Translations under genes and position numbers: made by a program
In this document: positions 8,920-64,000 of the stretch, one piece after another
How positions within the stretch are numbered: position 1 is the first letter of the stretch
Layout: every line of letters starts with the position of its first letter
From: Devosia subaequoris
GTDB lineage: Bacteria > Pseudomonadota > Alphaproteobacteria > Rhizobiales > Devosiaceae
Assembly (NCBI RefSeq): GCF_014197055.1
Contig: NZ_JACIEW010000001.1
Location: 620,001 to 684,000 of the forward strand
Direction: 5' to 3'
Length of the DNA: 64,000 nt
Notes under the pieces: generated by a model
What the model saw: the letters and a program-made list of their open reading frames with translations, nothing else
What the model was told of the DNA's origin: nothing
The model's database searches: none

Positions 8920-9060
8920 CCGACGAGTTGCTCTGCCTCGAAGCCAAGGCTCGCAAAGCTAGTCTCGCTCAGTACCTTCCAGGAATTGCAACGTTCTCAT
9001 TGTTTCGCTAGAACTCCCGCCGAAGATGACCGGCGCTTGAGCAAGCCGGGAGGAGCCAGC

Positions 9061-10326
9061 ATGACCAACGACCCCAATCGCCTGCCCGAAACCAATTGGG
9101 GCGCCTGGCAAAGCCGGCCGTTTCACCGGCAATATCTGATGACCCAGGCGAATCGGCTGTTCGATTTCTTCGAGGCGTCCTCGCTCAATCCAAAGGGCGG
9201 ATTTTTCGAGCTTTCCGATGATGGTCAGCCGCTCTCGCCAGAAAATGGGCTGCGGCAGGTTCACGTCACGACACGCATGATTCACTGCGCCACGATCGGG
9301 AGCCTGATCGGTCGGCCCGGCTCAGATGAAATTGTCGATCACGGCATGCGTTATCTGTGGGAGAAGCATCGCGACCAGCGCAATGGCGGCTATGTCTGGT
9401 CGCTGGATGACGATGGCTATGTCGATGACAGCAAGCAGGCCTATGGCCATGCCTTCGTGCTGCTGGCGGGCGCCAGCGCCAAGCTGGTGGGACATCCCCT
9501 GGCCGACCAGGTGATCGCCGACGTTACCGAGGTGATCGAGCAACGTTTCTGGGATAAGAAGATCGGCGCCGTGCGCGAAGAATTCGGCAATGACTGGCGG
9601 CAGATAAGCACCTATCGCGGCCAGAACTCCAACATGCACCTGACCGAGGCGCTGATGGCTGCCTATGAGGCTACCGGCGAGACCGAATACCTCCGGAAGG
9701 CGACCAAGATCGCCGATCTGATCATCCACCGCAATGCGGCCAAGCTCGACTATCGCGTGGCCGAGCATTTCCATGAGGACTGGAGTCTGGACAAGGACTA
9801 TCTCGGCTCCGAGATGTTCCGTCCGTCCGGCACGACGCCGGGGCACGCGCTGGAGTGGTCGCGCCTACTGTTTCAGCTCTTCGTATTGTGCCGCAAGGAA
9901 CATAGCTGGATGACCGAGTCAGCGCGCGGCCTGTTCCGCCAGGCCATCGATCTGGGCTGGGACAAGGTACATGGCGGCTTTTTCTATACCTTGGACTGGA
10001 ACAATCAGCCCATCATGCGTGAAAAGCTGTGGTGGCCGGTGGCCGAGGCGATTGGAGCGGCGGCCTATATCGGCGCCTATGACCATGACGATTACTACCA
10101 GCGCTGGTATCGCAAGCTTTGGGACTTTGCCGAGAACCACGTAATCGACCGCGAACGCGGTGGCTGGCACAGCGAATTGACCGAGCAACTCGTACCGACC
10201 TCGCGTCTGTTTGTGGGCAAGCCCGACCTCTACCACGCTTTGCAGGCTTGTCTGATCCCGCTCTATCCGGTGACCGGAAGCCTTACGCACGGGATCATCG
10301 AGGCCGACCACCCCAAGCGGCTCTAG
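9061..10326 (+). CDS. AGE family sugar epimerase/isomerase
   Basis: Four hundred and twenty-one residues, typical for the N-acylglucosamine 2-epimerase (AGE) superfamily, an (alpha/alpha)6 barrel. Family blocks include NGGYVWSLDDDGYVDDSKQAYGHAF, the Glu/His-rich HFHEDWSLDKDY, GTTPGHALEWSRLL with the catalytic His region, and a late RGGWHSEL. Members interconvert mannose and fructose, mannose and glucose, or N-acetylglucosamine and N-acetylmannosamine. The extended pocket and lack of a nucleotide-binding motif favour an aldose-ketose isomerase of the YihS/mannose isomerase kind, but the substrate is not certain. The start is fixed by GGGAGGAG six bases before the ATG. Confidence 0.88.
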   Translation: MTNDPNRLPETNWGAWQSRPFHRQYLMTQANRLFDFFEASSLNPKGGFFELSDDGQPLSPENGLRQVHVTTRMIHCATIGSLIGRPGSDEIVDHGMRYLWEKHRDQRNGGYVWSLDDDGYVDDSKQAYGHAFVLLAGASAKLVGHPLADQVIADVTEVIEQRFWDKKIGAVREEFGNDWRQISTYRGQNSNMHLTEALMAAYEATGETEYLRKATKIADLIIHRNAAKLDYRVAEHFHEDWSLDKDYLGSEMFRPSGTTPGHALEWSRLLFQLFVLCRKEHSWMTESARGLFRQAIDLGWDKVHGGFFYTLDWNNQPIMREKLWWPVAEAIGAAAYIGAYDHDDYYQRWYRKLWDFAENHVIDRERGGWHSELTEQLVPTSRLFVGKPDLYHALQACLIPLYPVTGSLTHGIIEADHPKRL

Positions 10327-59211: not shown

Positions 59212-61062
59212 CTACTGCGCCGCGACTTCGGCCTGATCTACGTCGAGGAACCCACCCGACTGACGCGCCCAGAGCTGGGAATAAATCCCGCCACTGTCGA
59301 CCAACTCGGCATGACTTCCCTGCTCGACAATGACACCCTTATCGAGCACGACAAGCCGATCCATCATGGCGATAGTGGAGAGCCGATGGGCAATGGCAAT
59401 CACCGTTTTGCCTTGCATGAGCATCTGCAACTGCCCCTGAATGGCGGCTTCGACCTCGGAATCCAGCGCTGAAGTAGCTTCGTCCAGCACCAGGATGGGC
59501 GCGTTCTTGAGCAGAACACGGGCAATGGCGATGCGCTGGCGCTGGCCGCCCGACAGTTTGACGCCGCGCTCGCCAACATGAGCGTCGTATCCCTTGCGGC
59601 CCTGCGGATCGGTTAGCGTCTCAATGAACTCGGCAGCTTCGGCCTGTTCGGCGGCCGCGCGCATCATCTCCTCGGTCGCATCAGGGCGGCCATAAAGAAT
59701 GTTTTCGCGAACCGAGCGATGCAGCAAGGAGGTGTCTTGCGTGACCACGCCGATATTGGCGCGCAGGCTGTCCTGCGTGACGTTGCCAATATCCTCGCCA
59801 TCAATGAGGATGCGGCCATCGGCGCGATCGTAGAAGCGCAGCAGCAAATTGACCAGGGTCGACTTGCCGGCGCCCGAGCGACCAACCAGCCCGATCTTCT
59901 CGCCGGGTCGTACATGCAGGTTGAGCCCCTCAATGACGCCCGAAGCCTTGCCATAGTGGAAGGCGACATTCTCGAACTTGATGTCACCTGTAACGCGCGG
60001 CAGTGCCTTAGCCTCGGGCTTGTCCTGAATAACGCGCGGCAGGGAGATGGAATTGATGCCATCCTTTACCGTGCCGATATTCTCGAACAGCGACGACATC
60101 TCCCACATCACCCACTGGCTCATGCCCTGGAAGCGCATGACCAGGCCCAGTGAAACGGCCAGAGAACCTGGCGACATCAAGCCCTGCATCCAAAGCCAGA
60201 TTCCCATGGCACCGACCGCGAAGAGCAGCAGCGAGTTGGACCAGAGCACCAGGATGTTGAGCACGGTGAACAGGCGCATCTGCCTGTAGACCGTGTCGAG
60301 GAAGCCATCCATAGCTTCCTTGGCGTAGGACTCCTCGCGATTGGAATGGCTGAACAGCTTTACAGTCGCAATGTTGGTATAGCTGTCGACAATCCGCCCC
60401 GTCATCATCGAGCGCGCGTCGGCCTGAGCCTGGGAAATCTTGCCCAGGCGCGGGATGAAATAGATCATGAGCGCCGCATAGCAGGCCAGCCAGACCAGGA
60501 AGGGGATGGCCAGTCGCCAGTCCGTCGAAGCTGCCAGGATCACCGCACCGGTAAAATAGACGACGACATAGACCAGCATGTCGAGCAGCTTCATCACCAC
60601 CTCGCGCACGGCGAGCGACGTCTGCATGAGCTTGGCTCCGATGCGGCCGGCAAACTCGTCCTGGAAGTAGCTCATCGACTGCCGGATCAGGTAGCGATGC
60701 GCCATCCAGCGGATGCGCTGGGGGAAATTGCCCAACAATGTCTGGTGCATGGTTAGCATCGAAACCAGCATGATCGCGGGCACGACGATGACGATCATCG
60801 CGGCCATCAGCGCCAGCTTCCAACCGTCGGTCTCAAGGAACGTGGCGGGATCTGCGTCGGCCAGCCAATTCACTACGTCGCCAATGAAGCCAAAAATGAT
60901 GACTTCACCGATGGCCACCAAGGCGGCAGTAAGGGCCATCAGGAGCAGCCAGCGCTTGGCGCCTTTGCTGTAATGAAGACAGAACTCCAGCAATCCCTTG
61001 GGGGGTTCGGTCGGGTCGCCCTTGGGATAGGGATCAAGTCGTGATTCAAACCAGCGCAACAT
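59212..61062 (-). CDS. ABC exporter, fused permease and ATPase (MsbA/MdlB-like), behind a SoxR-type operator
   Basis: Six hundred and sixteen residues. Six membrane helices precede an ATPase with Walker A VGRSGAGKSTL, Q-loop VTQDTSLLHRSVRENI, signature LSGGQRQRIAIARVLL and Walker B ILVLDEATSALDSE. It is a homodimeric exporter of lipids or drugs; the substrate is unknown. A perfect SoxR-type box lies 53 bases upstream with its -35 element pointing into this gene. SoxR in other bacteria controls exporters of redox-cycling compounds, so that is the likely role. No soxR gene is in the window. The ribosome site is weak. Confidence 0.92.
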   Translation of the reverse strand: MLRWFESRLDPYPKGDPTEPPKGLLEFCLHYSKGAKRWLLLMALTAALVAIGEVIIFGFIGDVVNWLADADPATFLETDGWKLALMAAMIVIVVPAIMLVSMLTMHQTLLGNFPQRIRWMAHRYLIRQSMSYFQDEFAGRIGAKLMQTSLAVREVVMKLLDMLVYVVVYFTGAVILAASTDWRLAIPFLVWLACYAALMIYFIPRLGKISQAQADARSMMTGRIVDSYTNIATVKLFSHSNREESYAKEAMDGFLDTVYRQMRLFTVLNILVLWSNSLLLFAVGAMGIWLWMQGLMSPGSLAVSLGLVMRFQGMSQWVMWEMSSLFENIGTVKDGINSISLPRVIQDKPEAKALPRVTGDIKFENVAFHYGKASGVIEGLNLHVRPGEKIGLVGRSGAGKSTLVNLLLRFYDRADGRILIDGEDIGNVTQDSLRANIGVVTQDTSLLHRSVRENILYGRPDATEEMMRAAAEQAEAAEFIETLTDPQGRKGYDAHVGERGVKLSGGQRQRIAIARVLLKNAPILVLDEATSALDSEVEAAIQGQLQMLMQGKTVIAIAHRLSTIAMMDRLVVLDKGVIVEQGSHAELVDSGGIYSQLWARQSGGFLDVDQAEVAAQ

Positions 61063-61384
61063 GTCTTAAGACCATTCGTTCAAAGCGGCATCGGTTCAGT
61101 CGCCCATACCTGTGCGACCTCAACCGCAGTTGAGGTCAAGGCATATCTGGCCGACGGTTCGAAGCCGCGCGGAAATTTCGGAACCATCGCTCATGCGACC
61201 GAAAAAGGCACAGAGGAACGACGTGCAGGCGGCTGCCTAGCATCCTCTCCTCAAAGCGTCCCAATTGACGCCACAAGAGTCATGCTATGCAGTCGAGAGC
61301 CGCATAGGATACACGAGAATGCAGAATCGGCTGTCACCAGACGGCCACACCTTAGTCAGAACACCATGACAATTGGACCGCTTC
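61063..61384. other. 322-base intergenic region, divergent promoters of the ABC exporter and pepN
   Basis: No gene of convincing quality lies here. Besides the SoxR-type box near its left end, it holds a possible weak plus-strand promoter for pepN (TTGACG near 61265) and a 16-codon chance frame ending about 15 bases before pepN. Confidence 0.6.
61116..61139 (-). promoter_or_regulatory. SoxR-type operator overlapping the promoter of the ABC exporter
   Basis: GACCTCAAC and GTTGAGGTC are perfect inverted repeats separated by 4 bases, giving the SoxR core CCTCAA-N6-TTGAGG at 61118-61135. On the minus strand the -35 element TTGACC (61139-61134) leads into the box exactly as in known SoxR promoters, where the operator fills a 19-20 base spacer. 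The matching -10 (CACAGG or ACAGGT) is poor. The box ends 53 bases before the exporter ATG. Confidence 0.72.
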
Positions 61385-64000
61385 ATGCGCACCGAGAGTG
61401 AACAGACCATCTACCTCAAGGACTATGCCCCGACCCCGTACCGGATCGTGTCAGTAGAGCTTGATTTCAAGATCCTGGAAGAAAGCACCCGCGTGCGGGC
61501 GCAACTGACTGTGGAGCCGCGCGAGGGCACCGCGCCGGGCACGCCGTTGGTGCTCGACGGAGACGAGCTAAAACTCGACTCGATCGCGCTGGACGGCGCG
61601 CCGCTGATGCAGTCCGCTTATGCGAGCGATGCCAATTCGCTGACTCTGGTGGAGCCGCCGCACAAGCGTTTCGTGCTCGAAACCGAAGTCACGCTGAACC
61701 CGGCAGCCAATACCAAGTTGATGGGGCTTTATCGCTCCAGCGGCACGTGGTGCACGCAATGCGAGCCGGAGGGCTTCCGCCGGATCACCTATTATCTCGA
61801 CCGCCCGGACGTACTCGCCCCGTTCAAGGTACGTATGAGCGCACCAAAGTCCGTGGCGCCGGTCTTGCTGGCCAATGGCAATCTGGTCGACCAGGGCGAT
61901 CTGGGCGAGGGCATGCACTTTGCCGTGTGGGAAGACCCTTTCCTCAAGCCAGCCTACCTGTTTGCACTGGTTGCGGGCGATCTCGGGTCAATCAAGGACA
62001 GCTTCACCACGATGAGTGGTCGCGAGGTCGAGCTGGGCATCTATTGCACCCATGGCAAGGAAGCCGAATGCGCCTATGCCATGGACAGCCTGATCCGCTC
62101 CATGGCCTGGGACGAGCGCCGCTTCGGACGGGAATATGACCTGGACGTCTTCAATATCGTCGCCGTATCGGATTTCAATTTCGGCGCCATGGAGAACAAG
62201 GGCCTCAATATCTTCAACGACCGGCTGGTCTTCGCCAAGCCGGAGACCGCCACTGATGCCAATTATCATGGCATCGAGCGGGTCATCGCGCACGAATATT
62301 TCCATAACTGGACCGGCAATCGCATCACTTGCCGCGACTGGTTCCAGCTCTGCCTGAAGGAAGGGCTGACGGTATTCCGCGACCAGGAATTCACCAGCGA
62401 CGAGCGCAGCCGTCCGGTGCAGCGCATCCATGACGTGCAGAACCTCAGAACCAGCCAGTTCCCGGAAGATGGTGGTCCGCTGGCCCACCCGCCGCGTCCG
62501 GACAATTATCGCGAGATCAACAACTTCTATACGACCACGGTCTATCAGAAGGGTGCGGAGATCGTACGCATGCTGGCCACCATGCTGGGCGAAGCCGGCT
62601 TCCGCAAGGCGATGGACCTCTACTTCGAGCGCCATGATGGTGATGCCACGACCATCGAGGCCTTTATCAAGGTTTTCGAGGATTCGAGCGGGCGCAACCT
62701 CAGCCAATTCGCCACCTGGTATCTGCAGGCAGGAACGCCGCAGGTGAAGGTCTCGGATAGCTATGATGCTGCCAGCCAAAGCTACACGCTGACCCTCAGC
62801 CAGACCAATGACCCCACGCCGGGCGAACCCACCAAAAAGCCTCTGCTGATCCCCGTGCGGTTCGGGTTGATCGGCCCAAATGGCAGTCCGCTGGGCTGGA
62901 CCGGCGTATCTGGCGGCACGGTGGAAGACGATCTGATCCTGTTCGACAGCGATAGCGCAACGTTGACGTTCGAAGGTGTCGCCAACAAGCCGGTGCCCTC
63001 GCTGTTCCGGGGCTTTTCGGCACCGGTCAAGCTCAGCACCAATCTCAGCCAGGACGACTTGCTGTTCCTGGCACGCCATGACAGCGACCCGTTCAATCGC
63101 TGGGACGCGTTGCAGACGGCATCGACCACCCTGATCGCCAATGCGGCACAGGGTAAGGCATGGTCCGAGGATGACGTCGACGCCTTGCGCGCCGCACTTA
63201 TTGATACGCTGGAAAATGGCGAGCTTGATGACGCCTACAAGGCGCAGGCACTGGACATTCCGGCCGAGACGGTCGTCGGCCGGTACATTGGCAAGGACGT
63301 CAACCCGGATGCGGTTGCCGCTGCCCGCAAGGGGCTGGTCACGGCCCTGGTGTCGCCGGTCGCATCCAAACTCGCCAGCACCTATGAGGCGTTGGCAAGC
63401 AGCGACGCCTATAGCCCCAACGCGGCGCAGGCCGGACGTCGTTCGTTGCGCAATGGCCTGCTGTCTTTGCTGACCACCGGGTCTGACCGTGGCGCCGCCC
63501 TCGCAGCCAACCAGTTTGAAGTAGCGACCAATATGACTGACCGCTATGCGGCAATGGCCATTTCGGTGCGCAACTGGACGAGTGAGGCAAGCGCCCTGCT
63601 CGGCGCGTTCCGTACACGCTTCGCCGGTGATCCGCTGGTGTTCGACAAGTGGCTAACGGCTTCAGCCCAGGCGCCGGACGAGGACGTGATTGATCGGATG
63701 CGTGCGACCCTGGCGGCACCGGACTTCCCCAAAACCAACCCCAACCGGCTGCGCTCGCTGCTGGGCAGTTTCGTGATGGCCAATCCGGTCCAGTTTACCC
63801 GCGTGGACGGGGCCGGATTCCGGTTCATTACCGAGGCGGTGGCCGAGATCGACAAGGTCAACCCGCAGGTCGCCTCGCGCATTCTTACCGGCTTCCGCGT
63901 CCTGCCGATCCTGGAGGCGTCGCGCCGCGAGGCGGGCATGACCGCCCTCCAGGCGCTCAAGGAGCAGCATACGCTTAGCCGCAATGTGGGCGAAATCCTC
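61385..64000 (+). CDS. pepN: aminopeptidase N (M1 family), C-terminus cut by window edge
   Basis: The frame from ATG 61385 stays open for 872 codons to the last base, and only a few residues should be missing since relatives have about 880. The M1 signatures are GAMENKG at residues 267-273 and the zinc site HEYFHNWTGN (His303, His307) with the third ligand Glu 19 residues further on, in LKEGLTVFRDQEF. It removes N-terminal residues from peptides in the cytoplasm. The N-terminus (TIYLKDYAPTPYRI) and the four-domain length fit the E. coli PepN branch. The ribosome site is weak. Confidence 0.95.
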   Translation, partial: MRTESEQTIYLKDYAPTPYRIVSVELDFKILEESTRVRAQLTVEPREGTAPGTPLVLDGDELKLDSIALDGAPLMQSAYASDANSLTLVEPPHKRFVLETEVTLNPAANTKLMGLYRSSGTWCTQCEPEGFRRITYYLDRPDVLAPFKVRMSAPKSVAPVLLANGNLVDQGDLGEGMHFAVWEDPFLKPAYLFALVAGDLGSIKDSFTTMSGREVELGIYCTHGKEAECAYAMDSLIRSMAWDERRFGREYDLDVFNIVAVSDFNFGAMENKGLNIFNDRLVFAKPETATDANYHGIERVIAHEYFHNWTGNRITCRDWFQLCLKEGLTVFRDQEFTSDERSRPVQRIHDVQNLRTSQFPEDGGPLAHPPRPDNYREINNFYTTTVYQKGAEIVRMLATMLGEAGFRKAMDLYFERHDGDATTIEAFIKVFEDSSGRNLSQFATWYLQAGTPQVKVSDSYDAASQSYTLTLSQTNDPTPGEPTKKPLLIPVRFGLIGPNGSPLGWTGVSGGTVEDDLILFDSDSATLTFEGVANKPVPSLFRGFSAPVKLSTNLSQDDLLFLARHDSDPFNRWDALQTASTTLIANAAQGKAWSEDDVDALRAALIDTLENGELDDAYKAQALDIPAETVVGRYIGKDVNPDAVAAARKGLVTALVSPVASKLASTYEALASSDAYSPNAAQAGRRSLRNGLLSLLTTGSDRGAALAANQFEVATNMTDRYAAMAISVRNWTSEASALLGAFRTRFAGDPLVFDKWLTASAQAPDEDVIDRMRATLAAPDFPKTNPNRLRSLLGSFVMANPVQFTRVDGAGFRFITEAVAEIDKVNPQVASRILTGFRVLPILEASRREAGMTALQALKEQHTLSRNVGEIL

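Follow-up and report, generated by a model that had tools for sequence, protein, structure and literature searches.

The perfect palindrome upstream of an ABC exporter gene in Devosia subaequoris is probably an authentic ancestral SoxR operator that was orphaned by deletion of soxR, which would leave the exporter under basal or other control. The window is the whole stretch of 64,000 nucleotides that was analyzed. The genome under study is designated G000, D. marina G020, D. indica G015, and a soxR-bearing sister species G064.

The palindrome and the exporter gene

The features around the palindrome are as follows.
59212..61062, minus strand: intact gene behind the box, encoding a predicted type IV ABC exporter half-transporter of 616 aa (PF00664 + PF00005)
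61109..61114, minus strand: CACAGG, the poor −10 position at a 19-bp spacer
61116..61137: perfect inverted repeat GACCTCAAC-CGCA-GTTGAGGTC, with 9-base arms and a 4-base loop
61118–61135: SoxR box core CCTCAACCGCAGTTGAGG (CCTCAA-N6-TTGAGG), with 0 mismatches to the dyad
61134..61139, minus strand: TTGACC, putative −35 element for the exporter, overlapping the box
61385..64000, plus strand: pepN (aminopeptidase N; TIGR02414, 1118 bits), divergent neighbor extending past the window end

The preliminary description, made from the window only, had claimed a perfectly symmetrical box with 9-base arms, a minus-strand TTGACC overlapping it 53 bases before the exporter start, and a poor −10 element, and the sequence agrees with it on all these points. 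The 53 bases are counted from 61116 to the ATG at 61062. Read on the minus strand, the site is TTGACCTCAACTGCGGTTGAGGTCG-CACAGG, with TTGACC in the usual SoxR register. The −10 position is likewise poor in soxR-bearing relatives of the same subclade; in the upstream regions of the orthologues from soxR-bearing relatives it reads CAAGGG/CAAGGC/CATGGC or TAGnnn. A genome-wide search for further copies of the box, also proposed in that description, found the perfect CCTCAA-N6-TTGAGG core only once in the 3.79 Mb genome.

The exporter consists of a PF00664 membrane domain fused to a PF00005 ATPase, in which the Walker A motif (GRSGAGKST) and the signature motif (LSGGQ) are present. With the domains fused and the motifs intact, it is, judged by its sequence, a type IV (ABCB-like) exporter. 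It resembles MsbA- and ABCB1-type proteins in profile and PDB searches, scoring below every NCBIfam cut-off shown, and its nearest solved relatives in the PDB search are ABCB1/ABCB19-type multidrug exporters. The protein may protect the cell against redox-active compounds, with phenazines or quinones, named in the preliminary description, as candidate substrates. In most Devosia, a second or third paralogous exporter (~48% identical) stands in tandem with this one; no tandem paralogue is among the matches listed for G000, G020, G015, G069, and G064. Control of pepN by the box is not evident. Blocks within the exporter–pepN intergenic region (61160–61330) are strongly conserved, for example GGTTCCGAAATTTCCG on the exporter strand. 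These blocks are also found in box-less Devosia and are perhaps promoters of either gene.

Conservation of the box and its association with soxR

Nearly all Devosia genomes carry the exporter, the nearest orthologues of the G000 protein being those of D. marina (97%) and D. indica (95%). We scored the box in the upstream regions of 72 Devosia orthologues; G062 was unscorable, since its contig ends too early. Of these genomes, 16 have a perfect box and another 5 a box with a single mismatch. It lies ~72–79 bp upstream of the start codon in every case, and more distant Devosia, among them D. insulae, show the same arrangement of box and exporter. The context is mostly CCTTGACCTCAA, and TTGACCTCAA is retained in 15 of the 16 orthologues with a perfect box, the exception being G015 (TTGGCC). 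The 6-bp spacer varies freely (CTGCGG, GCGCGT, CCATGC, GTGCGC, and GCGGAC), while both half-sites are unchanged, as expected of an operator.

Taking a TIGR01950 score above the cut-off as presence, soxR is found in 14 of 75 genomes of the genus. A 15th soxR-bearing genome is G053, where soxR is split by a frameshift. An exporter box that is perfect or has a single mismatch is present in 14/15 soxR-bearing genomes versus 7/57 soxR-lacking ones (Fisher p = 5e-9, a value that ignores kinship and is uncorrected for phylogeny). The trait is scattered over the exporter tree. Six sister comparisons were made (G054/G033, G051/G066, G032/G073, G035/G074, G022/G018, and G064 versus G069), and each time the worse site belongs to the side that lacks soxR, so that the association is not an accident of one clade. 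In the G064/G069 clade, the worse site holds for G069 only, and G000, G020, and G015 tie with G064. The soxR promoter itself carries the box in most soxR-bearing genomes, and in G064 and G054 the exporter box and the soxR box make up the entire set of perfect boxes.

The pairing of a SoxR-type box with the exporter, advanced in the preliminary description from one site, is thus conserved upstream of the orthologous genes in relatives and tracks soxR across Devosia. One of the two refutations stated there, a missing box before the exporter in close relatives, is therefore not borne out. On these comparisons, the site is by descent a SoxR box and the exporter was probably a member of the SoxR regulon in the ancestor of Devosia, because the box follows soxR and the spacers vary around fixed half-sites.

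The split soxR of G053 should be noted here (G053:C1:1294428-1294846; L058, L061). It lies in two frames, owing to a frameshift or a sequencing error, and the exporter box of this genome is still perfect.

A chance palindrome, or a hairpin of the leader RNA, was considered as another explanation. The site would fold if transcribed, and ~0.17 perfect cores are expected by chance in a whole genome at 61% GC. However, the numbers expected from composition fall to 6e-4 per genome for the extended 8+8 site and 6e-5 for the full 9+9 site, and the conservation of the site follows soxR. Box-less orthologues have no general hairpin there, and the only Rfam match nearby is sub-threshold and located elsewhere. 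This explanation is extremely unlikely, being largely refuted by the co-occurrence with soxR. The leader hairpin in particular was rejected, as orthologues lacking both soxR and the box show no hairpin excess at the box position. The Rfam match (L19_leader, 61184–61224) scores 24 bits against a threshold of 36 and was judged to be due to chance.

Deletion of soxR at its ancestral locus

The preliminary description had considered a direct, living SoxR–exporter circuit plausible and had named a genome without a soxR homologue as evidence to the contrary; G000 is such a genome. The best TIGR01950 score in G000, 46 bits, stays below the cut-off of 116.9, and the SoxR of G064 used as a query retrieves only MerR paralogues with 25–32% identity. 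Scans with PF00376 and PF13411 give five MerR-family proteins in G000. Reading their sequences revealed the C-x2-C-x-C-x5-C cluster motif in none of the five, the C-termini being CueR/MerR-like or lacking any such element. The sister G064 SoxR has this motif and matches E. coli SoxR (175 bits) with CIGCGCLSTETC.

The locus where soxR would be expected is present in G000, contiguous, and empty. In G064, soxR (L134 9017-9478) lies between a hydrolase-like gene, conserved and without a Pfam domain, and a divergent gene for a 134-aa membrane protein (9549-9953). The gene order is the same in G054, G032, and G012, and also in G005 and G051, whose hydrolase-like gene is more distant. Occupation of the same locus in deeply separated Devosia indicates that the order is ancestral and that the absence in G000 is a loss; a recent insertion of soxR in G064 was rejected on the same ground. 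Aligned to L134, the corresponding sequence of G000, G020, G015, and G069 runs from 9002-9004 straight to 9964-9968. Both soxR and the membrane-protein gene are missing, and next to the hydrolase-like gene stands the gene that in G064 lies on the far side of the membrane-protein gene. The junction sequence is identical in G000 and G020, suggesting that the loss is older than their split. G073 has a separate empty site at the soxR locus.

The 134-aa membrane protein (L134:9549-9953 in G064) belongs to no Pfam family, is encoded divergently from soxR, and was lost together with it. Homologues stand beside soxR in G054, G032, G012, G005, G051, G022, and G008. It is probably a SoxR target using the same box as soxR.

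A circuit could still be alive if soxR had been missed, lying in a gap of the assembly or on a plasmid that escaped sequencing, since the G000 assembly is only a draft in 29 contigs. This is very unlikely, given a completeness of 99.98%, the likewise missing soxR in three close relatives, and the contiguous, empty ancestral locus.

An orphaned operator accounts for these observations as follows. In the Devosia ancestor, SoxR would have bound the site and activated the exporter, whose promoter would have had a long spacer of 19 bp behind TTGACC. Unwinding of a long-spacer promoter by the activator is established for MerR and SoxR; oxidation of SoxR by redox-cycling compounds would thus have unwound this promoter and turned the exporter on. 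In the lineage of G000, a clean deletion of ~0.9–1 kb then removed soxR together with its divergent small membrane-protein partner. Expression of the exporter presumably now rests on low basal activity or on other elements, and redox induction through SoxR would be gone. With its cognate regulator deleted, the operator has most likely become a relic, and the site may now be idle.

The site after the loss of soxR, and known systems

The state of the box in the genomes that lost soxR should be noted, since it bears on whether the site could still be in use. The perfect core is retained in the three soxR-less sisters G000, G020, and G015, despite a fourfold-site divergence of 37% between the exporter genes of G000 and G020. 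Within the clade, half-sites have changed at 4/16 positions versus 37/57 in the spacer and leader (p = 0.005), and between G000 and G020 alone at 0/16 versus 13/59 neighboring positions (p = 0.03). These small numbers give hints of constraint on the half-sites after the loss of soxR.

Such constraint would be expected if selection maintained the palindrome for a dimeric regulator other than SoxR, or for RNA polymerase acting alone through TTGACC. Symmetric compensatory changes occur in soxR-less genomes, namely CCTCGA-N6-TCGAGG in G010 and GATCTCGA..TTGAGATC in G069. In other Devosia, a near-identical site, TTGACCTCAAGTTAACTTGAAG, goes with a separate MerR-family regulator encoded next to an MFS pump, which indicates that boxes of this kind are open to MerR proteins besides SoxR. 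However, this MFS-linked paralogue family and its site are both absent from G000, and the five MerR proteins of G000 look like CueR, MerR, and conserved housekeeping types. The compensatory cases are only two and could be produced by quasipalindrome template switching, and the boxes of other soxR-less genomes are decayed or absent. Use of the box without SoxR is unlikely, and it is a little more doubtful still that the operator was kept by selection after the loss of SoxR and passed to another regulator or to the bare long-spacer promoter. If true, such a takeover would mean that a member of the SoxR regulon was rewired with its operator unchanged. Takeover by the SoxR-like MFS-linked MerR protein itself was rejected, as the protein is not in G000.

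This second MerR-family regulator (L287, L294, and L299) is divergent from the MFS pump in many Devosia, where cross-talk with SoxR boxes is possible. Its long-spacer site, TTGACCTCAAG-N-CTTGAAG, is near-identical to the SoxR box. The protein differs from SoxR, to which it is ~37% identical in G069, in having a CueR-like C-terminus without the four-Cys cluster.

Returning to the orphaned SoxR operator, the arrangement can be compared with known SoxR targets. The soxS promoter of E. coli has the CCTCAA-N6-TTGAGG dyad within a 19-bp spacer, starting at the −35 element; its target is a transcription factor, and its −10 element is better than that of the Devosia exporter promoter. The mfsA box of Stenotrophomonas maltophilia, CCTCAACTGCAGTTGAGG, is identical at 17/18 positions to the Devosia box in its minus-strand reading, CCTCAACTGCGGTTGAGG (PMC4411124). 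SoxR binding to the mfsA box has been demonstrated and is abolished by mutation, and there too the box overlaps the −35/−10 region and drives an efflux gene (PMC4411124). The mfsA product, however, is an MFS pump encoded divergently from soxR with SoxR present, whereas in G000 the box precedes an ABC exporter gene that is not linked to the ancestral soxR locus, and soxR itself has been lost by deletion. In Streptomyces coelicolor, the ABC transporter SCO7008 (ecaA) is a direct target in the SoxR regulon (PMC4146615). It shares with the Devosia exporter the tie of an ABC transporter to SoxR, but Streptomyces belongs to another phylum and has the regulator (PMC4146615).

SoxR control of an ABC transporter is thus already known; an ABCB-like ancestral target in Devosia and its orphaned box would be new. 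Our literature search found no paper on SoxR in Devosia, the matches being an unrelated ArsR-type SoxR and a review, and nothing on point concerning the evolution of SoxR regulons. An ABCB-type exporter would add an alphaproteobacterial case to the transporter-centered SoxR regulons. The genus would also offer a datable loss of a regulator whose operator can be seen at every step of decay, from perfect through one mismatch and degenerate to gone, which may help the study of how a regulon dissolves. For annotation, a perfect box in a genome should not be taken as proof of a living circuit.

Further perfect boxes are found in soxR-rich Devosia, before an MFS transporter gene in G022 and before an ornithine cyclodeaminase-like gene in G012. 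These genes (loci L141:2795-4297 and L143:2284-3282) are possible extra SoxR targets.
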